From: a virus | Strand: one strand, 5' to 3' | DNA length: 33,872 nucleotides | IMG/VR virus record: IMGVR_UViG_3300037042_001714 | Coordinates: 1 to 33,872 of that record | In this document: in pieces, positions 3,562 to 33,872 of the stretch | How positions within the stretch are numbered: the first letter of the stretch is position 1 | Layout: every line of letters begins with the position of its first letter | The notes under the pieces: generated by a model | Seen by the model: only the letters and a program-made list of their open reading frames with translations | The model's database searches: none | What the model was told of the DNA's origin: nothing | Translations under genes and position numbers: made by a program

Positions 3562-6500
3562 ATGTCTCAACAACAACAGACCGTACTTAAAGTACAGACT
3601 AATAAACCAAACTTTCAGATTGATTTACCTCAAGGTACTTGTACTGTTTCCGCAGGTACAACTATGACAATTACAGGTGGATTCGGCGGAAATGGTACAC
3701 AACTAGATCCTTTTATTGGTTCACAACCTACATCAACTAGTGCTAATGCTTATTTTGATATTAACAATGCTAGTGGAACAGTTTATTATGTTGTAAGTGG
3801 TCAAACAGAATATGGTATTTGGGACCCATCAACAGTTTATTTAATACGTGATTCAGTTTCATATGTATCAAGAAGAACTACAATAGAAAATCCTGTTATG
3901 TTTGGTAGTATTGATGTTCTTCCAGGTGATATAATTCGTGTACAAATTTTAAATAGTGGTCCAGGAAATACTAGTATGCCGTATTTCTATTTTGTTCCAA
4001 ACGAAAATTCAACCACAGCTTATGAAGATTTGGTATTAGATTTATATGGAGATATTCCAATTAAGATTAATAGGTCATTTGCGGAGTTACAAGATATAGC
4101 AAAGAAAAATTCAGATTATTCTATAGGATTAACATTACCAGGTTCAAAAAGAAACAATCAATTCTTTGAGAGTTTTTTTAATGTTGATGTAGATACATTA
4201 TATTTCAATCCATTATTAAGAACACCTGCAAGAGTATTAATTGATGATGAAGTTTATTTTACAGGTTATTTAAAATTAAATAAGATATCGGTTTTAGATT
4301 CAAAAGTAGAATACGATGTAACATTATTTTCAAACATATCTGATTTATTTGGTAAGATTGGTAACAACTTATTAAAAGATTTACCATACGGTGACCCAAC
4401 TAGAAATTTTAATCATAATTTTAATACTTTTACAATTCTTGGTAGTTGGAACGAAATAGGATTTTCTTATGTTGGTGACCCAAATGCTTATATATATCCA
4501 ATCGTTCACAATGGTTACAATTATACGGGTGACACGGTTAACTTAAGTGGTACTACGGTTTCTAACCCCATTGCTAACCAAACAAGGCTATATACAACCT
4601 CATCACCAATTAGTCAATTTCCAACTGAAGCGGCAATGTATGCTGCGGGTGTAAAACCATATAGACTTAATACAAGAGGAACATCGGTATTAGATAACCA
4701 ATTAAAACCTGCATTGAATCTGTGGTCTATTATGCAATTATTATTCAAGACATATGGTTATACTATAAAGTCTGATTTTATGAATACACCGTGGATGAAA
4801 GGTTTATATATGTATGGTTATTTTAATAGTGATACAACCAAATTCTCATATACAACAGATATTAGTTCATATTCAAATAACACTGAAGCGTTTAGATTAA
4901 CTGAAGTATCAGGATCAACCTATAATGCTCCTTGTGGTCAATATGATAATTATAACACATATACTTTTACGCCTGTAAATTCACAAACAGGTGAACCCAT
5001 CGGCAGTTACCATAAACCGTTTACAATTGCGTGGAATTTCGTATATACACCTTGTGATTATCCAACATCACCAATTGAATATAGAACGGAATATATTAAT
5101 ATTATGCCAGGTGAATTAGATAAATCATTTACTTGGTATTTTAAAAAATATGTTCCTTGTCCATCAGCTTGTCAATATGAATTATTACAACAGAATGGTC
5201 AGAATCTTTCCAATTCAAATTTATTCCAATTTAATACAAGTAATGCACCACAAACTGTTTTTATTAATGATGGTGATTATGTAGATTTTAGTTTAATCAT
5301 TAACAATACAATTAAACAAATTGATATCCTTGCATCTATTGCAAAGAAATTTAATTTAGTATTTGTTCCTGACCCTGAAGTTCCAAATCAAATTATTGTG
5401 GAACCATATCAATATTATGTTGGTACAGGTTCAATATATGATTGGACAGATAAATTATCATACGATAAAGGATGGTCAGTTCAACCAGCATTAAACTTCG
5501 TTGAGAGTGAATTAATCTTTACAGACTTAGAAGATGGTGATGATGGTAACAAACAGTTCAAAGATAAGAATAGTAGAATATACGGTCAAAATTATGTATT
5601 CAATCAAACAGATTTTAAATCTCAAACAAAAAAGATTGAAACCATATTTTCACCACAGATTACAAGAAAGTGGGATAACAACGTTGCAATACCATTGGGG
5701 ATTAATTATGTTAGTGCTAATACACCAGGTGAAACAGCAGCAGTTGAATCAGTTATATGGACATATAAAGGTATTAAAACTAAACCAAAGATTTTCTATT
5801 ACTTAGGTAATAAAAGTATATTCTTAAATACATTGGGTGAAGTTTATGACACAACATATATATGGGCAACAAATTTAATATATATAAGTAAATCAGATGG
5901 TACAAATTCACTTGCTTCTACCGAAGCTCCTGTAATTTCCAATACAATGCCATTGGGTAACCCTGATAGTAATAAGATAAACAATGATAGTATCTGTATC
6001 CTATTCAATAGTGAATTACCAACAGATGTTGGTGTTGAAACATTTGATGCGGTAAACGCATATACAGACCGTGATATGTACAATTTATTCTATGAGAATA
6101 GAATTAATAATCTATATAATTCAAATACTCGTTTCTTAGAAGGATATTTTTGGTTGAAGTTAAGTGATATCAAGAATCTTAAAGCCAATGATATTATTAA
6201 AATTAAAGAACAATATTTCACGTGGAATAAGATTAATCAATATAATCTAACAGATAGAGAATTAACTAAAGTAGAATTAGTTCAAGTTGATAATAATCCA
6301 AGTGTATACCCAACTAGATATTTCCAATACAATTATTGTGCTGATACAGGGACAACATATAATATTAAAACAGATTTTACAAATCCAGAAATGATTAAAA
6401 CCCATTTCTATATTAGTAATTGGTATGATTATTATGTTGGATTATTAGGAGGTTCAGTATCAAGTATTACAAGTTCATTTAGACTAGGTATTTCAACACC

Positions 6501-6974: not shown

Positions 6975-9881
6975 ATGATAGGATCATTATTAATAACATT
7001 TGATGAAGTAGTAGAAGGAAGAGGTGGAGCATATTTTTGGGTAACCGTAAATGGTGAAGCAAGAAATACACATTATACAGATACCAATAGATTATATACA
7101 ACAGATTTATTCGTTGGTGACGTATGTACAGTTTGTATTTCAGGTCAAACACAATATGTAGAAAGTATTGGTATAATACGTAGAGATTACACAACTGATG
7201 ACCAAGAAGGAGATAAAGGAATTGTTGATAATAATATTACAACTCAACAAGGTGGTCCAGGATTATGTGTAACATTCACAGCAACAACTGTTGCCAATGC
7301 TTACAATTTTGAATATAGATTAGATTTGAGTATGGGACCTACACCTACCCCAACACCTACACCAATGCCAACACCTGTTCCAGATGATGGTAGATATTTG
7401 GTTGTATCAAACAAATATGACGTTGTAAGGTTCTCAAATGATTATGGTAATACGTGGACTAATTTCACAGGTGTAACAACTCCTGAGACATATGGTGCAT
7501 TAATATCAGGAACGGGTAGATATCGTTCTCTAACGGACAGATTTCAACCAGGTGGAGGATTTGACCCAGGATACATTTGGACCTCGTCAGACTCAGGTAA
7601 TACATTCAATGCGTTAACAAATTCAGACCAAATTAATTGGTGGGCTGATATGGATACATCACCAAATGGTTTATATCAATCGGTAGTAGATGAAAGAGGC
7701 GCCTATTATTTATCAACAGATTATGGTTCAAGTTTTCAATTTATCAGTTTATCAAATAAAGAATGGATTAAACCTGTAATTCCAGGAGATACATTATTTC
7801 CATCTTATGGATTAACTTCTGATAAGATATGGAAATTACTACAACGTGCTGGTCCATTTATTGAGATGACAGGATTAACTGTGACAACTGCGTTTACAGA
7901 TATGGCAGTATCACAGAACAATCAATATATAATGGCTACACAAGAGAATTTCGGTGTATCCATTTCAACAAATTCAGGAAGTACATTTAATATAACACAT
8001 TTCTTTGGTAATGAAAAACTTAATCCAACTTGTGCAATGTCTGCCGATGGTAAGTATATGTACGTTGGATTTAATATGGGTTCACCGTTAATATCTGGTG
8101 GTCTATATTATTCGGAAGATTATGGTGTAACATTCAATGAAATATTACGTCCATTAAGTGGAGGAGGAACTGTTGCCTTTGGAAACGTACATAGTATATC
8201 AGTTTCAAGAGATGGTATGTATGTTTATTTTGTTACAGAATTTAGTGCAACAAATAACTATTGGTTGTATCGTTCATCAAACTATGGTGCATCATTTGTT
8301 CAATTACCATCCGCTAGTATTGCGGGAGAAGGTGGAACAGTTTATGATATAACCTATGTTAGACAAAATAAAATGTACTTGGGTGTACAACCAACTCCTG
8401 AACCTACACCTACTCCACCACCAACCCCAATATATGGTCCAAACATTTTAAATATTGAATGGAATTATAGTTGGTCAGGAGCTTCGGCTAATAATATATC
8501 AGTATCACAGTACCAACATTATTATGAGGATTATGGTTTACCATCAATCTATAATTTGTTGGTACAAGGTCCTTATGTGTTATCAACTAGTGCAGGTTCA
8601 ATCACAGGAACGACATTTACAAACAATCCTGATGTGGTTAACTTTTGGTCATATGCCGCAGATAACTTAACAAGAACATTATCACAAACAGGTGTAACAT
8701 ATCAAGTAAATCAAAGAATACGTAAGACATATTATAACGGAGCATTAGTTGATACAAATACTCAAACAGGTCCTTTTCCAATTGGTTATGGTTTTATGGA
8801 TGCAAGTTCTTCATATACAGGAACAACAATTGTATCGGGAGATACTGTTGGGTTTGAATGGATTGATGTTATGGGAATAGCACCAACACCAACACCAACA
8901 CCAACACCTTTACCAACGTCAACACCAACACCTACACCAACACCTACGCCTATACCTGTAACATTCAAAACAGAATATTACGCTAATGGTGATATTGTTG
9001 CACCTACTAATCAAAAAGATGTTGGTATAGCACATTCATATCTTGGAGGAACAATATATAATGAACCGATTGGTCCAAGTTTTAATGAAACACCATATAC
9101 CTTTACAGGTTTTACAAGAACATATTCAAATGGTACGGGTACTGTTTCAATGTCAAGAACACTATATCAACAGGGTTCAAGTTACTCAGGTCAATATATA
9201 ACAGGATTTACTGCTAATTTATTTGTAAATGGTTCAAGTGTATGGTCAACAGGTTATACATATTCACCATCTATTACAATTCCGGTATCACCATCTTATG
9301 ATGATAGGTCAGTAGTTACTTCAGGTATTACATTTAATCCTGGAGATAATGTTGTATTTAGATGGACAGATGCGTTAGATTATATTGCACCAACTCCGAC
9401 TCCTACTCCTACTCCAACACCAACTCCTACACCTACACCATTACCTGCAACGGTAGCTTTTAGAAGTAAAATGCTTGGAGGTACAGGAATAGGTAAACGA
9501 CACGCAAATAGATATGTTAATTTTAATCAATCAGGAATTGACCAAACATTTACATTTTCCGATTATACAACAACTTCAGGTAATGCTACATCAACTAGTG
9601 CGTCTCAAGATAACTTTATTCTTGGTTCATCTGTAATAATAACAATAAGAAGAGATTTGTGTAAAACAACATTAGGTACTTTAACAAGAGATACAACATA
9701 CGCAAAGGTATTTATAAATAATATACAAGTTGGTTCTACTTGTTCAACTGGAACAAACACAACCGTTAATACTTGTCCGACATCAATAAATAATCAATAT
9801 AATACTTGTTTAGGTACATTTACAATAAACACTGGTGATAACGTAATAGTTGAAATTGAAGATCAATTTGTACAACCTTAA
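6975..9881 (+). CDS. Modular receptor-binding adhesin with Asp-box propeller and (TP)n linkers
   Basis: I use the ATG at 6975; an upstream TTG at 6948 would overlap the preceding gene and split the TTTATATTTAA element. The 968-residue product is a string of domains. Residues 1-120 form an N-terminal anchor, then a (TP)n linker at 121-136. Residues ~137-472 contain six Asp-box-like motifs (SNDYGNTW, SSDSGNTF, STDYGSSF, STNSGSTF, SEDYGVTF, SSNYGASF), as in sialidase/BNR beta-propellers. Another linker follows at 473-486, then three domains at ~487-635, 662-804 and 826-968, each closing on a GDxVxFxWxD-like strand and separated by longer linkers. Asp boxes are structural, so they do not prove glycosidase activity. 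The context (tail-tip gene upstream, tape measure downstream) suggests a virion-displayed binding protein. Confidence 0.75.
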   Translation: MIGSLLITFDEVVEGRGGAYFWVTVNGEARNTHYTDTNRLYTTDLFVGDVCTVCISGQTQYVESIGIIRRDYTTDDQEGDKGIVDNNITTQQGGPGLCVTFTATTVANAYNFEYRLDLSMGPTPTPTPTPMPTPVPDDGRYLVVSNKYDVVRFSNDYGNTWTNFTGVTTPETYGALISGTGRYRSLTDRFQPGGGFDPGYIWTSSDSGNTFNALTNSDQINWWADMDTSPNGLYQSVVDERGAYYLSTDYGSSFQFISLSNKEWIKPVIPGDTLFPSYGLTSDKIWKLLQRAGPFIEMTGLTVTTAFTDMAVSQNNQYIMATQENFGVSISTNSGSTFNITHFFGNEKLNPTCAMSADGKYMYVGFNMGSPLISGGLYYSEDYGVTFNEILRPLSGGGTVAFGNVHSISVSRDGMYVYFVTEFSATNNYWLYRSSNYGASFVQLPSASIAGEGGTVYDITYVRQNKMYLGVQPTPEPTPTPPPTPIYGPNILNIEWNYSWSGASANNISVSQYQHYYEDYGLPSIYNLLVQGPYVLSTSAGSITGTTFTNNPDVVNFWSYAADNLTRTLSQTGVTYQVNQRIRKTYYNGALVDTNTQTGPFPIGYGFMDASSSYTGTTIVSGDTVGFEWIDVMGIAPTPTPTPTPLPTSTPTPTPTPTPIPVTFKTEYYANGDIVAPTNQKDVGIAHSYLGGTIYNEPIGPSFNETPYTFTGFTRTYSNGTGTVSMSRTLYQQGSSYSGQYITGFTANLFVNGSSVWSTGYTYSPSITIPVSPSYDDRSVVTSGITFNPGDNVVFRWTDALDYIAPTPTPTPTPTPTPTPTPLPATVAFRSKMLGGTGIGKRHANRYVNFNQSGIDQTFTFSDYTTTSGNATSTSASQDNFILGSSVIITIRRDLCKTTLGTLTRDTTYAKVFINNIQVGSTCSTGTNTTVNTCPTSINNQYNTCLGTFTINTGDNVIVEIEDQFVQP
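7337..7383 (+). repeat. (TP)n linker microsatellite, copy 2
   Basis: CCnACn hexamers separate the N-terminal anchor from the Asp-box domain. One Met interrupts the Pro-Thr run. Confidence 0.8.
8391..8430 (+). repeat. (TP)n linker microsatellite, copy 3
   Basis: A short, imperfect Pro-Thr linker lies between the propeller and the first of the three C-terminal beta domains. Confidence 0.75.
8881..8957 (+). repeat. (TP)n linker microsatellite, copy 4
   Basis: This is the longest copy: about thirteen hexamers, mostly CCAACA, encode alternating Thr-Pro with a few Leu, Ser and Ile substitutions. The antisense frame here (8786-8968) is an artefact of the repeat. Confidence 0.85.
9388..9447 (+). 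repeat. (TP)n linker microsatellite, copy 5
   Basis: Ten hexamers alternating CCTACT and CCAACA precede the last domain of the adhesin. Confidence 0.85.
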
Positions 9882-10429: not shown

Positions 10430-10454
10430 TAAAAAATATATACATATATAGAAT

Positions 10455-21523: not shown

Positions 21524-22114
21524 TTATTTTGTACTTTTTTCAAATGGGTTACAAAGAATGTTTAATAGTTTTACACCTTCTGTGGATAACTTGATAATCC
21601 ATTCCTTCTCCCTTTGTTTCATTTCAATACTATTTCCGTTCAACTGGTCAATAACATAACCTGATCTAATCATCTTCTTAACATCCGATAATTCATATTT
21701 AATCAATGCTTGGTGTAATAATGGTAGGTAAGCTGCTCCTGGTCCTTGTTTGATAATCTTTCTAAAGTCATTTACGTGTTGGGTTAATCTTGTATGTAGG
21801 TGACGTTTGGTTGCCCCGATATAACTTCCTTCAGGTAAGTCAATTCGGTATATCTTGGCTGACTTATTGGCTGTGAAGTAATCCTTATTGTAAAGGTCCG
21901 TCTTTTCCCTATTCTTGACAAAGTAACCTTGTTCCCCACCCCAATAGTAATCAGGTCTTAAAACGTCTCTAAAGTACTTAGAATTGGATTTACAACAAGT
22001 CTTACATCTTTGTTGGAGACCATCCTTTGCTGCAGTTCTTTTATTGAATTCGGTTGTTGGTTGTTCAATTTTACATTGAGTACATAATTTTGTTTTTTTC
22101 ATAGTCATATTCAT
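21524..22114 (-). CDS. GIY-YIG endonuclease with N-terminal zinc finger
   Basis: The 196-residue protein begins with a CxxC...CxxC finger (Cys11, Cys14, Cys37, Cys40; CTQCKIEQPTTEF). This is followed by a linker and a GIY-YIG nuclease core: IYRID at 88-92 and GSYIGATKRHLHTRLTQHV at 96-114, with the catalytic Tyr98 and Arg109 candidates. A later acidic residue lies in QREKEWI (~167-173) and Asn in LLNILC. GIY-YIG proteins with this finger are commonly free-standing homing endonucleases in phages. The gene is intact, leftward and located at the junction of late and early regions, a frequent insertion site. A DNA repair or exclusion nuclease is an alternative. Confidence 0.82.
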   Translation of the reverse strand: MNMTMKKTKLCTQCKIEQPTTEFNKRTAAKDGLQQRCKTCCKSNSKYFRDVLRPDYYWGGEQGYFVKNREKTDLYNKDYFTANKSAKIYRIDLPEGSYIGATKRHLHTRLTQHVNDFRKIIKQGPGAAYLPLLHQALIKYELSDVKKMIRSGYVIDQLNGNSIEMKQREKEWIIKLSTEGVKLLNILCNPFEKSTK

Positions 22115-22214: not shown

Positions 22215-22310
22215 GTCCCACTTCACAATATAGGACATTAAAGAAATTTAAGGGTTGTTGAAGAAAACTGAGGTGAAGTGCAGTGAGTATTTGATGACCC
22301 TTTTTAAATT
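22215..22310 (+). ncRNA. Structured 5' leader with potential kissing loops
   Basis: Two small hairpins, GTCC/GGAC (22215-22218, 22233-22236) and ACTG/CAGT (22267-22270, 22281-22284), carry loops with perfectly complementary 8-mers CACTTCAC (22219-22226) and GTGAAGTG (22273-22280). A further long-range pairing AAGGGT/ACCCTT (22250-22255, 22297-22302) plus AATTT/AAATT interleaves with it, forming a pseudoknot order. A 17-codon ORF (22208-22261) overlaps the first hairpin. The fold is read by eye, so a regulatory function is an inference. Confidence 0.4.
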
Positions 22311-22318
22311 AAAAAAAG

Positions 22319-22960
22319 ATGGAAAAGAAAAGTTTTAAGTTCTACACAAGTTGGAACGAAGCTATTAAAAGGATGGATGAACAACAAATTCGTACTTTCA
22401 TTAACAATCTTTGCAACTATGCAGAGGGTAAAGAAGTTCATTTGAATGGACTGATGGAAGAAATAATGTGGTCACAGGTTCAACCTCTATTGGATTATAA
22501 TGAACAGATGAGACAAAAGAAAATTGAGAATGGCAGAAAGGGAGGTGTGGCCAAATCAGAAAAAAAGTCTGAAGGTAACCAAGAGTTACCAAATCCTACC
22601 AAAACTACCAAAGGTAACCAAACTTACCAAGACTTACCGATGAAAGAAGATGATGATGTTGAAGATGATGTAGAAGTAGAAGATGATAGTAGAAAGATGA
22701 CAGATGATGTTGAAGGTAGATTATTAAAGATAATGAAGAATGTAATTGATGATGGTAATATTACTAAAGAAGAAGTAATAAATTGGAAAATGAAAGATAC
22801 TAGAGAATTACTTAATTATACTTTATCTGATTATTCTAGTTGGGAAAAGGATTTAATTAATTTAGGTTCTGAATGTTTTTTAAGAAAGCTACCAACTAAA
22901 ACTAGTATTGAAATTAATTATTTGGTTCATTCATTAATTAAGGCGCACGAAATATTATAA
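22319..22960 (+). CDS. DUF6291-like replication protein carrying iteron-like repeats
   Basis: The 213-residue product begins KSFKFYTSWNEAIKRMDEQQ and continues through a helical block to NGRKGG at ~66-71, the pattern of DUF6291 proteins found at the replication locus of Bacteroidota phages. A polar linker (EKKSEGNQELPNPTKTTKGN), an acidic stretch (DDDVEDDVEVEDD) and a C-terminal helical domain follow. The plan (N-terminal putative DNA-binding domain, linker overlying repeats, C-terminal domain) resembles lambda O and other theta initiators. The linker DNA holds seven ~10-bp direct repeats (22574-22641). No polymerase, primase or helicase is in this window, so replication would rely on the host. 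It is the first gene after a structured leader. Confidence 0.65.
   Translation: MEKKSFKFYTSWNEAIKRMDEQQIRTFINNLCNYAEGKEVHLNGLMEEIMWSQVQPLLDYNEQMRQKKIENGRKGGVAKSEKKSEGNQELPNPTKTTKGNQTYQDLPMKEDDDVEDDVEVEDDSRKMTDDVEGRLLKIMKNVIDDGNITKEEVINWKMKDTRELLNYTLSDYSSWEKDLINLGSECFLRKLPTKTSIEINYLVHSLIKAHEIL
22574..22641 (+). repeat. Seven tandem ~10-bp iteron-like repeats (candidate replication origin)
   Basis: Units GGTAACCAAG, AGTTACCAAA, TCCTACCAAA, AACTACCAAA, GGTAACCAAA, ACTTACCAAG and ACTTACCGAT share the core (T/A)ACCAA(A/G). Core spacings are 10, 10, 9, 10, 9 and 10 bases, close to one helical turn and not multiples of three, so the repetition is in the DNA and not in the protein. Confidence 0.65.
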
Positions 22961-26021: not shown

Positions 26022-26603
26022 ATGAAAATAGAATTTATAATACCAACTTACTCAAGAGTCAACCACTTAATCACAATGGTTGCATCACTAACAGCACAAT
26101 CAAATCCAAATTGGAAGGCACATATTGTTGCCGATTGTCCTGATGATGATGTTGTTGAACAGATGAAGACTATGGTTACATTCTTCAACGATGAAAGAAT
26201 TAGATTAACCGTACTAGATAAAAGATATAATGATTGGGGACACACACCTCGTCAATACGGAGTGGATAATGCCACAGAGGAATGGGTGATAATGACAGGA
26301 GAAGATAACTACTATGTCCCAGAGTTTGTGGATATTATGTTAGGTGAGTCAGAAAACCAACACTTCGTTTATTGTGATATGGTCCACAATTGGATTAACA
26401 AAGATTACATTCCATTATTATCCAAACTACAATTAGGTAGAATTGATATTGGAAATTTTATGACAAAGACCAATATGGCTAAGAAGATTAAATTAAGGAT
26501 TGACCAGGAATGGGCTGATTGGTATTTCGTTGAGGAATTTCAAAATAAATATAAGGCAGCAAAATATAAAAAAGTAAACAAAATACTATATGTACATAAT
26601 TAA
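26022..26603 (+). CDS. GT-A family glycosyltransferase (GT2-like)
   Basis: The 193-residue protein starts with MKIEFIIPTYSRVNHLITMV, the classic GT2 nucleotide-binding start. AHIVADCPDDDVVEQM and ERIRLTVLDKRYNDWGHTPR follow, then VMTGEDNYYVPEFVDIML-like residues (here IMTGEDNYYVPEFV), where GEDN occupies the position of the DxD metal motif. It is short for the family, with only a compact catalytic domain. It probably transfers a sugar from an activated nucleotide donor. It begins the run of three modification genes between terS and terL and overlaps the next gene by 14 bases. Confidence 0.8.
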   Translation: MKIEFIIPTYSRVNHLITMVASLTAQSNPNWKAHIVADCPDDDVVEQMKTMVTFFNDERIRLTVLDKRYNDWGHTPRQYGVDNATEEWVIMTGEDNYYVPEFVDIMLGESENQHFVYCDMVHNWINKDYIPLLSKLQLGRIDIGNFMTKTNMAKKIKLRIDQEWADWYFVEEFQNKYKAAKYKKVNKILYVHN

Positions 26604-27132
26604 AAAAGACGAACCCATAATGAGGGACAACACTTCATCAGAAGGATTAAGACAATTAATAAAAGAATTGGGTGATACATCCAAAATGACAATGGTTGAG
26701 ATTGGTTCCTTTATAGGGGAAAGTACAATCATCTTTGCAGAACACTTTAAACAAGTGATTGCAATTGACCCATTCCAACCTGACTATCACAAAGAAGACC
26801 CTACATCTAAATTTAACTTTGATGAGGTGTATGATGAGTATATCAGAAGAACATCACCATTCCCAAATATCAAGACACTACGATTAACATCTGATAGTGC
26901 AGTAGATATATTGAAGGATGAGTTGTTTGACTTTATCTACATTGATGGTATCCACACATACGAACAAGTTAAGATTGATATTGAAAACTATCAACCGTTA
27001 GTTAAATCAGGTGGTGTTATTGGTGGTCACGATTATGGTCCACATTGGCCAACCGTAAACAAAGCTGTGGATGAAAAGTTTGGTAAACCAGATAAAATGT
27101 ATAAAGATACAAGTTGGATTAAACAATTATAA
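26590..27132 (+). CDS. Class I SAM-dependent methyltransferase (Methyltransf_24-like)
   Basis: The 180-residue enzyme shows motif I TMVEIGSFIGESTIIFAE (~34-51), motif II VIAIDPFQPDYH (~56-67), the SDSAVDIL strand and DFIYIDGIHTYEQVKIDI (~116-133), and a final VKSGGVIGGHDYG motif. DGxHxYExVxxDI and GGVIGGHDY are hallmarks of the Methyltransf_24 family, often found in glycan biosynthesis loci. The gene overlaps the glycosyltransferase upstream, and its stop immediately precedes the next glycosyltransferase. It probably methylates a sugar or a small carrier. The exact substrate is unknown. Confidence 0.84.
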   Translation: MYIIKKDEPIMRDNTSSEGLRQLIKELGDTSKMTMVEIGSFIGESTIIFAEHFKQVIAIDPFQPDYHKEDPTSKFNFDEVYDEYIRRTSPFPNIKTLRLTSDSAVDILKDELFDFIYIDGIHTYEQVKIDIENYQPLVKSGGVIGGHDYGPHWPTVNKAVDEKFGKPDKMYKDTSWIKQL

Positions 27133-27852
27133 ATGAAAGTAGCATTAGTATGTGTTGCAAAGTGGGAGGATTATTATTTGGATGAATGGTTAGAGTATAA
27201 CCATAAATTAGGATTTGATAAAATCATAATGTATCAAAATGATTGGAGAACTGATATTGAGAAACCATACCTACAAAAAGAAGTATGTGATGGTAGATCT
27301 ATTCAGGTTCCATTATATAACAACGTATTAAATACCAATACAGAATATGATTGGGTTGCATTCTTTGACTGTGATGAATTTCTTGTGTTAAAGAAACATA
27401 ACAACGTCAAAGAATTTATAAACGACTATAAGGATAAGACCAATGTAATAGGATTGAATTGGTTTATATTTGGTTCGTGGGGAATAAAAACAAGAACATC
27501 TAATTCATTACTTAGAATGTTTCCAAATAGGAATAAGAACATAGACCCACATATTAAGGTTATGGTTAATGCAAGGTCAGGTGAAAGAATGGCATTACCA
27601 CATAATACAATGGGACAAGCAATGGATACCAATGAAAAAGTATTTAATGGACCATTCAATCCAAACGGACCATCAGATGTTGCATATATTAATCACTACC
27701 ATAGTAAAACAAAAGAGGATTGGATGTTAAGATGTCAAAGAGGAAGAGTAGACTGTGAAATACAACACGACCCTAATAGATGGGATAATGAAGTAAATGA
27801 TAATATTGATATTGTAGATTTATCAGCCTTAAGTTTTATGTATGAAAATTGA
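27133..27852 (+). CDS. Glycosyltransferase (Glyco_tranf_2_4 / GT92-like)
   Basis: The 239-residue protein begins MKVALVCVAKWEDYYLDEWL, then EYNHKLGFDKIIMYQNDW. It contains the DxD motif in DWVAFFDCDEFLVLKKHNNV (~75-94) and closes with INHYHSKTKEDWMLRCQRGR. This is the order seen in the Glyco_tranf_2_4 family: an N-terminal VxKxEDxYLxEWLxYHxxLG pattern, FxDxDEF, then HYxxKSxEEW. It is retained in full with no truncation. Starting directly after the methyltransferase stop and overlapping terL by 11 bases, it is part of one transcript with the packaging genes. Confidence 0.86.
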   Translation: MKVALVCVAKWEDYYLDEWLEYNHKLGFDKIIMYQNDWRTDIEKPYLQKEVCDGRSIQVPLYNNVLNTNTEYDWVAFFDCDEFLVLKKHNNVKEFINDYKDKTNVIGLNWFIFGSWGIKTRTSNSLLRMFPNRNKNIDPHIKVMVNARSGERMALPHNTMGQAMDTNEKVFNGPFNPNGPSDVAYINHYHSKTKEDWMLRCQRGRVDCEIQHDPNRWDNEVNDNIDIVDLSALSFMYEN

Positions 27853-30023: not shown

Positions 30024-31043
30024 ATGAATACAAGTTCAATTAATTATAAACAGATATTAGCCGATTTAGGATCAATCGCTTATCATCACCCACAGATTAA
30101 ATCTTATGGGTTTGGTGACCTTGCACAATGCACAAACGATATAATCACGAAGCAAGAACCCGAATACACAAGAATGTACGTTGTTCCCGGAGAGGTTAAA
30201 TTGAATGAGAACCATCTTAATTATCGTTTCTCTATTATTATTATGGATAGGGTAGACGATGACCAATCCAATCAATCAGACGTAATGTCAGATACATTGA
30301 GAACAGTTATGGATGTTTGGACCATCTTATTACAATCATATACGGCATCTCAAGGAGAGTTTAGTTGGTATTTGGTTGTAGATGAGAACCCAGACATTTT
30401 TCCATTCTTAGAAAGATTTGAAACAATCTTAGGTGGATGGACATTGAACGTATCATTTCAAGTTGCGTTTGATTATAATAGTTGTACACCACCTGTGATA
30501 GGAAACTTCCAATTTCCCGAAGACGAACAATACAATAGTTACAAATTTGTATTAAGTCAATTTGAGGACTTTGCTGATAAACATTTACAGGTTAACTCAT
30601 ATGGATTTGGAGACGTAGAACAATTAACAAACGATATAATAACAAAACAAGAACCAGAATATCCACGTATGTATGTGTTACCTGACAGTACACATTTTCA
30701 TACAGGGAACATCCATTTAGGGTTTAAGGTATTCTTTGTAGATAAGTTAAATAATGACATTTCAAATTTTGGTGAAGTTTTATCTGACCAATTGGAAATT
30801 GTTAAAGACTTTTTTGCCAAACTATATCTTTCAGACTTTGAAGCGGGATGGGATGCAACTGTTCAACCATACTATGAAAAGACTGAAACAATCTTATCAG
30901 GATGGATAATTGACTTTCACTTCATACAGAAGTATAGTTATGATAGATGTGTACTTCCTGAAACTTCATTCGTATTTGGATTGACTTGGGAGGAAGTTGC
31001 GGAATTATGGAAAAACGTTAACACTAAATGGAAAAACGTATAA
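30024..31043 (+). CDS. Tail protein with tandemly duplicated domain
   Basis: The 339-residue product contains two copies of a ~150-residue domain. Repeat 1 (residues ~20-155) includes IKSYGFGDLAQCTNDIITKQ, EPEYTRMYVV, DRVDDDQSNQSDVMSD and FETILGGWTLNVSF. Repeat 2 (~185-318) has VNSYGFGDVEQLTNDIITKQ, EPEYPRMYVL, DKLNNDISNFGEVLSD and TETILSGWIIDFHF. Each ends near a Tyr/Asp-x-Cys pair. The fold of these units is reminiscent of tail terminator or minor tail proteins in Bacteroidota phages, but I cannot name the family with certainty. The gene lies between the putative chaperone and the giant fibre, consistent with a tail-joining role. Confidence 0.65.
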   Translation: MNTSSINYKQILADLGSIAYHHPQIKSYGFGDLAQCTNDIITKQEPEYTRMYVVPGEVKLNENHLNYRFSIIIMDRVDDDQSNQSDVMSDTLRTVMDVWTILLQSYTASQGEFSWYLVVDENPDIFPFLERFETILGGWTLNVSFQVAFDYNSCTPPVIGNFQFPEDEQYNSYKFVLSQFEDFADKHLQVNSYGFGDVEQLTNDIITKQEPEYPRMYVLPDSTHFHTGNIHLGFKVFFVDKLNNDISNFGEVLSDQLEIVKDFFAKLYLSDFEAGWDATVQPYYEKTETILSGWIIDFHFIQKYSYDRCVLPETSFVFGLTWEEVAELWKNVNTKWKNV

Positions 31044-31065
31044 AATACAAATATATAAACAATAT

Positions 31066-33872
31066 ATGGGACAATTAACTAATCAATATGTAAGTAGTTC
31101 TTATCAAGGTCTTTTAAAAATGACCGACAGCACGACAGGTGTAACAGGGACATTACAAACAGTACAAACAGGAGATGGAACAAATACTCCATTACAAATA
31201 AGTCAGACTCAGATAAACATCTCAGGTTCATTAACTATTAATGGTTCACCTGTTTCAAATGTAAATACAGGTTCGTTTGTAACCACTTCGTCATTCAACG
31301 CTTACACATCATCAATGGATACAAGAGTTGATGGTATTGAAGCTAAGACAGGTAGTTACGCAACAACAGGTTCAAATACATTTATTGGGGCACAAATAAT
31401 TGAAGGGAATGTAACATTCCCAAGTAATTCATTTGTATCAACCGACAATGTATCAGGGTCTTTATACTTGTCATCATTAAATCAAGGAACGTTATATCTT
31501 AACGCCGATGGTGGTGAAGGTGATGTAATAGTTGGTTACTCAGCGTGGCAGAATAGTTTAAAAGTAAAAGGTGGTAGTACAGAAATTACAGGTTCATTAG
31601 GAGTAACTAATATAAAAGGTACAGGAAGTTTATTCTTACAACCAAATCAAGGAGACGCAAGATTTGTAGAAGTATATAACACATCACCAACTGATACACA
31701 CATCACAGCAAGTGGTGGTCAAATATTCTTGGGTGATGACCAAACATATGTTAAGGTTGATAATTACGGTTCAGTTGAACGTATTGATATTGTAGCAGGT
31801 AATGAATTAGTAGTCTCATCATCAATAACAAATCTTACAGGTTCTTTACATCAATCAGGTACATTCTATCCTGACCAAGTTGATTGGATTAATAGTTCAA
31901 TAGTACAAAGTACAGGTTCATATATATTAACAACAAACGTATCAGGTGTAACAGAATATGATAGTTACCAAAATGTAGCATCAGCGTTACAACCATTTAT
32001 TAATACAGGTTCATTACCATCAGGATTGGTATCAGGTTCATCTCAAATATCTTATACAGGTATTACAGATGTACCATCAGGAATAGTTTCAGGTTCATCA
32101 CAAATAAGTGGATTAGGATTTGCAACCACAGGTTCGGTTGATGCTTTAACAGGTTCAATCAATAGTTTAAACTCAGCCACTAGTTCTTATATCAATACAG
32201 GTTCAGTTGGTGGTAATCAATCAATCACAGGAAGTTTAGGTATTAGTGGTACACTTACTGCTTTATCTGCATCAATTACTTATTTAGAAACAGTTTACGA
32301 AACTGCATCAATTATATATTCAAGTGGTTCAAACCAATTTGGTGATGCATCAAACGATACACAAACATTATGGGGTACAGTTAATTTACCATCAGGTCCA
32401 TTAGTTGTAACAGGTAGTGTAACAGCAACAAACTTTACAGGTTCTTTACAAGGTACTGCATCTTATGCACTCAATTCATTAAGTAGTTCACATTCTGTAA
32501 ATTCAGATACGTCTATTTCGTCAAGTTATGCACAAACCGCATCATTTGCGTCAAACGGTGGTGTAACACAATTATTAGCGGGACCAAACATTACTATATC
32601 ACCATTAAGTGGTAAAGGACAAGTTACAATTTCTTCAACAGGAACAGGTACAGGTAGTTTCAATACTGCAACAGGTTCATATGGTAGTTTCTACGATACA
32701 ACAACACAAATAAATCCTGTGGCTAATACAGCAAATAGTATGTCGTTTAACGAAACTGCAATTACAAATGGTGTAGCAATATCAGGTAGTATAAGTCCAT
32801 TCAACACTTATATCAAAACAGAAAACGCTGGTGTATATAACCTTCAATTCTCTGCACAAGTAGATAAGACAGATAGTGGTACTGATAGTGTTGATATATG
32901 GATTAGAAAAAATGGTAGCGATTTATTAGATACTGCCACAACAGTAACATTAACAGGTAATAATGATAAATCAGTTGCAGCTTGGAACTGGTTTGTTCAA
33001 TCAGCTGCTAATGATTATTATCAAATTATATGGGCATCAGCTGATACCGATATGAGATTATTAGCTGAAGTATCATCAAGTGTACATCCTGGTGTCCCTT
33101 CAGTTATTGCAACAGCAAATAGAGTTGACCAATTCTTAAGTAACACAGGTTCATTCAATGGTGACTTTAATGGTTCATTCACAGGTTCATTACAAGGTAC
33201 TGCATCATTTGCAACCAACGCATTATCAGCATCATACGCACCAGGTGTTTCAATACCAGCAGGTACAGTATCAGGTTCAGCACAAATAGTTGAATTAGGA
33301 TTTGCAACAACAGGTTCAAACGTATTTAAAGGTAACCAAACAATATCAGGTAGTTTATTAACCAACACATTAAATGATGGTTTAATTAAAATAGTTACAG
33401 AAGCACAAAATTCAAGTTCTTTAGCGGTACCATTTGGTTATATTTCAGCATCTGCAGCAATTTCACAATCAAATTTAATATTTGGTTCAACAACTGGTAT
33501 TGCTGGTGCTGGTCAATTAGCAGCTAATCTAACAGGTTCAATTGTTATATCAGGTTCAAATAATATTATTTTATCTGGTAATAGGGCAAATACTTTAGTT
33601 ACTGCAGGAACATATGGATATATTGGAGCTACTAACTTTGTCAGTACAATTCCAACTATTACTACATCATCTATTCTTAGACCAACAGTATCAAATAATA
33701 ATTTAAATAGTCAAGTATCCTTTGCATTTACAACTAGTTCATTAACTGCACCATCATTTACAGTAAATAATGTTTTAAATAGTGTTACAATAAATCATCA
33801 AAGTGGTTCAATAAATTATAGTAATAATATTAATGTTGGTACTGTTACATCAAACGCAAACAATATAGCGTT
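31066..33872 (+). CDS. Long TGS-repeat tail fibre (3' end outside window)
   Basis: The frame is open from the ATG at 31066 to the end of the window (935 complete codons). The product is rich in Ser, Thr, Gly and Asn, with dozens of TGS tripeptides and recurring phrases: FTGSLQGTAS (twice), VSGSSQI, GFATTGS (twice) and TGSYATTGSNTF. A non-repetitive block at ~560-680 (TENAGVYNLQFSAQVDKTDS, VDIWIRKNGSDLLD, AAWNWFVQSAANDYYQIIWA) looks like a TNF/C1q-type beta-sandwich inserted in the shaft. Such proteins form trimeric tail fibres that recognise the host surface. The C-terminal portion is probably the fragment at bases 1-702. It has an A/T-rich leader and no TTTATATTTAA copy. Confidence 0.82.
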   Translation, partial: MGQLTNQYVSSSYQGLLKMTDSTTGVTGTLQTVQTGDGTNTPLQISQTQINISGSLTINGSPVSNVNTGSFVTTSSFNAYTSSMDTRVDGIEAKTGSYATTGSNTFIGAQIIEGNVTFPSNSFVSTDNVSGSLYLSSLNQGTLYLNADGGEGDVIVGYSAWQNSLKVKGGSTEITGSLGVTNIKGTGSLFLQPNQGDARFVEVYNTSPTDTHITASGGQIFLGDDQTYVKVDNYGSVERIDIVAGNELVVSSSITNLTGSLHQSGTFYPDQVDWINSSIVQSTGSYILTTNVSGVTEYDSYQNVASALQPFINTGSLPSGLVSGSSQISYTGITDVPSGIVSGSSQISGLGFATTGSVDALTGSINSLNSATSSYINTGSVGGNQSITGSLGISGTLTALSASITYLETVYETASIIYSSGSNQFGDASNDTQTLWGTVNLPSGPLVVTGSVTATNFTGSLQGTASYALNSLSSSHSVNSDTSISSSYAQTASFASNGGVTQLLAGPNITISPLSGKGQVTISSTGTGTGSFNTATGSYGSFYDTTTQINPVANTANSMSFNETAITNGVAISGSISPFNTYIKTENAGVYNLQFSAQVDKTDSGTDSVDIWIRKNGSDLLDTATTVTLTGNNDKSVAAWNWFVQSAANDYYQIIWASADTDMRLLAEVSSSVHPGVPSVIATANRVDQFLSNTGSFNGDFNGSFTGSLQGTASFATNALSASYAPGVSIPAGTVSGSAQIVELGFATTGSNVFKGNQTISGSLLTNTLNDGLIKIVTEAQNSSSLAVPFGYISASAAISQSNLIFGSTTGIAGAGQLAANLTGSIVISGSNNIILSGNRANTLVTAGTYGYIGATNFVSTIPTITTSSILRPTVSNNNLNSQVSFAFTTSSLTAPSFTVNNVLNSVTINHQSGSINYSNNINVGTVTSNANNIA

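Follow-up and report, generated by a model that had tools for sequence, protein, structure and literature searches.

In phage lambda the iterons of the origin are found midway along O, the gene of the initiator, and in Stx phages extra iterons add 13 amino acids to the O protein (PMC7466680). Two other phages carry direct repeats within the gene of their origin-binding protein, with loader and helicase genes downstream: SPP1, in gene 38 (gp38, oriL; PMC6316719), and 80alpha, in ORF20 (PMC5499656). In plasmids with RepA_N initiators (pSK41, pPR9) the origin is found within the part of rep that codes for a dispensable linker running from the DNA-binding to the C-terminal domain; in pPR9 a phage HTH domain (pfam13730) has replaced the N-terminal domain together with the origin, and the upstream control region has been kept (PMC5703833). 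Control in the initiator leader is exemplified by repZ of the IncI-alpha plasmid ColIb-P9, whose mRNA leader contains a pseudoknot (Asano and Mizobuchi 1998, as cited in PMC10724649).

The stretch of DNA analysed here (hereafter the window) is the complete IMG/VR virus record IMGVR_UViG_3300037042_001714, which is 33,872 bp long and classed as linear. The genes at its two ends (1–702 and 30997–33870) lie close together in two related phages (L115 and L120), and the linear record is therefore probably a near-complete, circularly permuted genome. An earlier note on this DNA had proposed that a DUF6291-like protein is the replication initiator of the phage and that short repeats inside its gene are the origin. 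We favour the same reading and give it a probability of about 80%: the DUF6291 protein would be the phage replication initiator and the array at 22574–22641 its own in-gene origin. Several observations, set out below, argue for it, among them the keeping of the repeats in homologues with a varying peptide, an 11-bp periodicity in the family that is absent nearby, the presence of replication genes in the neighbourhood and the replacement of the gene in its slot. The features of the locus are listed in Table 1.

Table 1. Coordinates of the leader, the DUF6291 gene and the iteron array in the window
Feature	Position	Strand	Basis or remark
Structured 5' leader RNA with kissing or pseudoknot helix	22208..22312	+	Covariance model R1, 104.6 bits
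Stem P1	22215-22218 with 22233-22236	+	Covariation alignment
Pseudoknot helix, 5' strand CACTTCAC	22219..22226	+	Covariation
Stem P2 (22250-22259 with 22293-22302) enclosing P3 (22267-22270 with 22281-22284), then T-rich tract	22250..22302	+	
Pseudoknot helix, 3' strand GTGAAGTG	22273..22280	+	Covariation
DUF6291 gene, putative replication initiator, 213 aa	22319..22960	+	Pfam PF19808, E=1.2e-12; AlphaFold2 model
N-terminal DUF6291 domain, residues 1-78	22319..22552	+	Pfam match; AlphaFold2 helices 7-17, 21-35, 45-74
Iteron array, six exact WACCAAR and one degenerate site, encoding polar linker	22574..22641	+	Kept in L001, L002, L003
Iteron 1 AACCAAG	22577..22583	+	Motif scan
Iteron 2 TACCAAA	22587..22593	+	Motif scan
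Iteron 3 TACCAAA	22597..22603	+	Motif scan
Iteron 4 TACCAAA	22606..22612	+	Motif scan
Iteron 5 AACCAAA	22616..22622	+	Motif scan
Iteron 6 TACCAAG	22625..22631	+	Motif scan
Degenerate iteron 7 TACCGAT	22635..22641	+	Same sequence in L001 and L002
GATGATG-rich stretch, encodes acidic linker	22642..22701	+	Where other DUF6291 genes have the AT-rich stretch
C-terminal helical domain, residues 129-212	22703..22954	+	pLDDT mostly >90 (AlphaFold2)

That the array is inside a gene for a DUF6291-like protein was confirmed by Pfam: the match of the N-terminal domain to PF19808 scored 48.2 bits against a curated cut-off of 27.2, which makes the protein a member of this family. DUF6291 has no assigned function in Pfam or PHROGs, and no mention of it was found in the open full-text literature searched. 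The AlphaFold2 model consists of two helical domains separated by a linker in which residues 88–123, coinciding with most of the array, are disordered. A fold search found no solved PDB structure similar to the modelled protein and no solved DNA-binding fold matching its N-terminal domain; among viral models it matched DUF6291 proteins and a single protein with a DnaD domain. RepA_N initiators possess a winged helix, whereas the DUF6291 model matched no winged-helix fold in the PDB and the window protein had no Pfam match to the RepA_N domain PF06970, so that it is not placed in that family. Searches of bacterial genomes and of INPHARED with the window protein returned nothing.

The earlier note counted seven copies of (T/A)ACCAA(A/G) in the array. 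Six are exact (starts 22577–22625), whereas the seventh, at 22635, reads TACCGAT. The reported spacings are right, with 10, 10, 9, 10 and 9 bp between the exact copies and 10 bp to the degenerate site. They do not, however, put the repeats on one helical face, as had been claimed: the mean spacing is 9.67 bp, which at 10.5 bp per turn amounts to a phase drift of 189 degrees from the first to the last site, so that a near-common phase holds from one site to the next but not for the array as a whole, which is not on one face. The encoded peptide had been described as non-repetitive, and the six WACCAAR copies do fall in three reading phases (0, 1, 2, 2, 0, 0) and contribute to differing peptides (NQ, LPN, PTK, TTK, NQ and YQ, respectively). 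Partial repeats nevertheless exist (GNQELP ... GNQTYQDLP), and GGTAACCAA is found twice, in frame and 39 bp apart. Similarly, the stretch that follows the array is GATGATG-rich but not A/T-rich, as its first 60 bp are 66.7% AT compared with 69.2% for the gene. Six WACCAAR copies represent the maximum per 60 bp over both strands of the 33.9-kb record, the minus strand reaching at most 2. When synonymous codons were redrawn with the protein held fixed, at least six WACCAAR copies in 60 bp were obtained with P = 5e-5, a value that concerns a motif chosen after being seen; homologues are therefore the better test.

Relatives covering the linker were found in IMG/VR at three loci (L001, L002 and L003), of which L003 is near-identical to L001 over the region; the array is covered by only three independent close sequences. 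A WACCAAR scan of the whole viral collection returned these loci and one unrelated phage contig (L007), in which AAACCAAACCAAACC microsatellites (8060–8098, 8468–8502 and 8852–8874) stand immediately ahead of several start codons. Six exact copies are present in each of L001 and L003 (spacings 10, 9, 10, 9 and 10 bp) and five in L002 (10, 10, 9 and 10 bp); in each case the same degenerate TTACCGA unit follows. In the alignment L001 has an extra 9-bp unit towards the 5' end of its array and the window has one towards the 3' end, and L002 has neither. These two separate gains encode different tripeptides (LPS in L001 versus TYQ in the window) and added the same heptamer. Substitutions are confined to the spacers, the ACCAA cores being spared. 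The earlier note had asked whether homologues lose the repeats and keep the linker peptide; in L001, L002 and L003 the opposite was observed, the repeats being kept and the peptide varying. More distant DUF6291 homologues, L159 (about 43% identity) and L191, have no WACCAAR arrays and contain other ACC-containing repeats instead. The region concerned in L159 is 4740–4860; in L191, where the DUF6291 gene is on the minus strand, the 19-mer AAAAACAAACAAAACAACC occurs twice, 28 bp apart, and hence in two reading frames. The lack of WACCAAR in both homologues and the two-frame repeat of L191 suggest that the array and the N-terminal domain change together.

The family at large was retrieved with a generic DUF6291 consensus as probe, from which DNA patterns were derived; these patterns contained no linker sequence and the composition of the linkers was therefore not selected. 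This search yielded 126 relatives, 80 loci were kept and 63 non-redundant linkers were analysed. Nearly all members share a common plan, in which the DUF6291 domain is followed by NGKKGGRPK, a polar linker, a stretch rich in N, V, D and E and a variable C-terminal domain. In the linker DNA, ACC cores form an array with a spacing of about 11 bp, or of 5 + 6. In the 63 linkers there were 246 pairs of ACC at lag 11 (versus 68 after synonymous shuffling, 14 after codon-order shuffling and 0.6 in control windows), counts which are not independent trials because the sequences share descent, although lag 11 stands out very strongly from lag 9 or 13. The excess persisted at lag 22 (190 versus 50) and lag 33 (140 versus 48), with the same trend at lag 44. 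The best lag was 11 or 22 in 41/63 linkers, and 45/63 were above the synonymous null computed for the linker in question (P < 0.05). Identity at lag 11 was at least 0.5 in 65% of the linkers, compared with 0/4,828 neighbouring control windows of 108 bp. A recurrent 11-residue peptide, e.g. TKPKPNDNQTE, corresponds to 33 bp; since 11 bp, roughly a helical turn, is no multiple of the codon, the peptide represents three 11-bp repeats read across three frames. Some members keep the period with a different core, among them L063, in which seven units follow each other at a spacing of exactly 11 bp, and a few (L018 and L014) have in-frame repeats. AT enrichment of the 60 bp behind the array was seen in 53/61 family genes (71.8% versus 59.8% AT). 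The window subgroup uses the same ACCAA core at a spacing of 9–10 bp against the family norm of 11, and the lag-11 test of the window linker itself was not significant. In-gene tandem repeats conserved as DNA were thus found both in the window and in the family.

Many DUF6291 genes have replication genes beside them. In viral contigs, the next two genes include ones for DnaC-like loaders, DnaB, primase/helicase or, at two loci, a G39P-type loader. In phage PJN03 the DUF6291 gene adjoins those for a bifunctional primase/helicase, ERF and SSB, and dnaB stands beside it in a Bacteroides finegoldii plasmid and in a Vibrio phage. PHROGs matched by several family members are annotated as replisome organizer, replication initiation protein or DnaD-like helicase loader. 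The window proteins scanned include no helicase, primase or loader.

The position of the gene was also compared in 80 related phages retrieved via TerL. In these, the slot, flanked by a small minus-strand gene and an endonuclease-like gene, is occupied by DUF6291 or by other proteins; the occupants in L115, L120, L121 and L096 match replication initiation or DnaD-like families and are taken as O-like or DnaD-like initiators. Several swapped-in genes contain repeats of their own, spaced by one or two helical turns: in L115 at 1300–1395 (spacings 21, 22 and 23 bp) and, in two genes with no convincing family match, at 4786–4828 in L130 (11 and 11 bp) and at 2994–3054 in L165 (11, 11 and 22 bp). 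In the window, the endonuclease-like gene (21524–22114, minus strand; PHROG matches to endonuclease and endonuclease VII) is an insertion with the small minus-strand gene on one side and the leader on the other; it is missing from L001. Another segment that varies among the relatives is 26022–27852, with two glycosyltransferase-like genes and a methyltransferase gene; it separates the putative small terminase gene from TerL.

Upstream of the DUF6291 gene we found a structured leader. In an alignment of 18 sequences, 96.1% of the cells were paired (34–51% in slid controls) and 19 of the 26 pairs changed on both sides. An 8-bp pseudoknot helix links the P1 and P3 loops; it is paired in 18/18 sequences (100% of cells) and 6 of its 8 pairs covary, which makes this initiator leader a pseudoknotted one. 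Folding of single sequences was not significant (z of -0.7 and -0.2) because the pseudoknot was missed, and it was the covariation that decided. No credible match for the leader was found in Rfam. With the covariance model a single copy is detected at each phage locus, and it stands upstream of the slot gene irrespective of the initiator family (e.g. L001:4885–4990, L115:915–1017, L120:5744–5847 and, on the minus strand, L126:2179–2283). Where the slot gene is inverted the leader is inverted with it, being on the minus strand in L126 and L124, and in three short loci (L178, L186 and L187) the ORF after the leader codes for a small protein of unassigned kind. The pseudoknotted leader of about 100 nt is an undescribed RNA standing before unrelated initiator genes, and it probably controls the amount of initiator made.

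Compared with the described systems, the DUF6291 locus is like lambda and Stx O in that added repeats lengthen the protein, the 9-bp units of the window group adding 3 amino acids each. However, lambda has four 18-bp iterons about 20–24 bp apart (starts 39034, 39054, 39078 and 39101) with an AT-rich region, whereas the window has 7-bp cores 9–10 bp apart, shows no local AT enrichment and encodes an unrelated N-terminal domain. The resemblance to SPP1 and 80alpha lies in the downstream neighbours shared by several DUF6291 genes, including the two with a G39P-type loader; in contrast, the scanned proteins of the window phage include neither a loader nor a helicase, the repeats of 80alpha have an in-frame period of 15 bp, and a DUF6291 domain is not reported for gp38. 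The pPR9 pattern is echoed in this phage group by the kept leader RNA and the HTH_36 replacements. For the leader, repZ of IncI-alpha is the closest functional analogy, the common feature being the pseudoknot in the initiator leader. The DUF6291 system would work like lambda O, SPP1 gp38 and RepA_N, but by the tests applied here it belongs to none of these protein families.

A mechanism can be proposed in which initiator molecules would line up on adjacent ACC cores, each roughly a helical turn from the next, so that the bound row winds slowly round the DNA. The bound initiator would distort the DNA and open AT-richer DNA nearby, and it would then bring in helicase machinery, which in the window phage would be that of the host because none of the scanned proteins is a helicase, primase or loader. 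We infer the binding of the array by the DUF6291 protein, the part of the N-terminal domain in that binding, the place of melting and the recruitment from the host.

The array could instead have arisen without any role for the DNA, as a by-product of slippage in a repetitive, disordered linker selected as peptide only. The linker is predicted to be disordered, unit gains are multiples of 3 bp, and in-frame repetition is seen in the GGTAACCAA pair, in L018 and L014 and in the period of 80alpha. Yet the copies in the window are read in three frames to give differing peptides, their clustering exceeds what the protein-fixed null allows, and the dominant spacing in the family, 11 bp, is unobtainable from a codon repeat and far above the synonymous null; we consider such an origin of the array improbable, and readings by slippage alone or as a microsatellite were rejected because of the protein-fixed null and of the 11-bp period running through three frames. 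The array is thus taken as real and selected as DNA, and it is read most economically as an in-gene origin to which the DUF6291 initiator would bind.

The array might also be a DNA-binding site with a regulatory role, bound in autorepression or by another phage or host regulator, with the origin elsewhere. The detrended cumulative GC skew is lowest at 10,450 and not at the array, an outcome that the earlier note had named as refuting its proposal and that formally counts as such, but skew is a poor test here since nearly all genes are co-directional; the structured leader directly upstream suggests that expression of the initiator gene is controlled. A mid-gene position over the linker is, however, typical for in-gene origins and unlike that of operators, and the same pattern recurs in initiator genes of several families in the same slot and beside replication genes, so that a purely regulatory site seems unlikely, if somewhat less so than slippage. 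The leader itself, as RNA or extruded DNA, might be the origin, the in-gene repeats only assisting, given that it is present once per phage and is conserved more widely in the group than any single initiator. Against this, it always precedes the start codon of the slot gene, even when inverted, as an mRNA control element would, and DUF6291 genes outside the phage group have arrays whereas the leader is known here from this group alone; of the alternatives this is the one to which we give the least credence. We therefore retain the DUF6291 protein as the candidate initiator and the array as its candidate origin.

In-gene origins were already known from lambda, SPP1 and RepA_N plasmids, and DUF6291 would add to them a family without an assigned function. 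Little known so far, the family probably represents a large class of replication initiators, each with the start site in its own gene. On balance we also lean, with less assurance than for the window alone, towards a broader picture in which DUF6291 is a large phage initiator family whose linker sequence is dictated by a helically phased array, and in which this phage group swaps the origin-plus-initiator cassette as a unit for unrelated initiators while the pseudoknotted leader that meters the initiator stays. A non-codon periodicity of the DNA near one helical turn in a linker would then serve as a signature for calling origins in uncultured phages, and the arrays would constitute a clear case of protein sequence written by selection at the DNA level. 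The leader RNA, being independent of the initiator, would represent a second and separate element of replication control in phages whose replication is unstudied.
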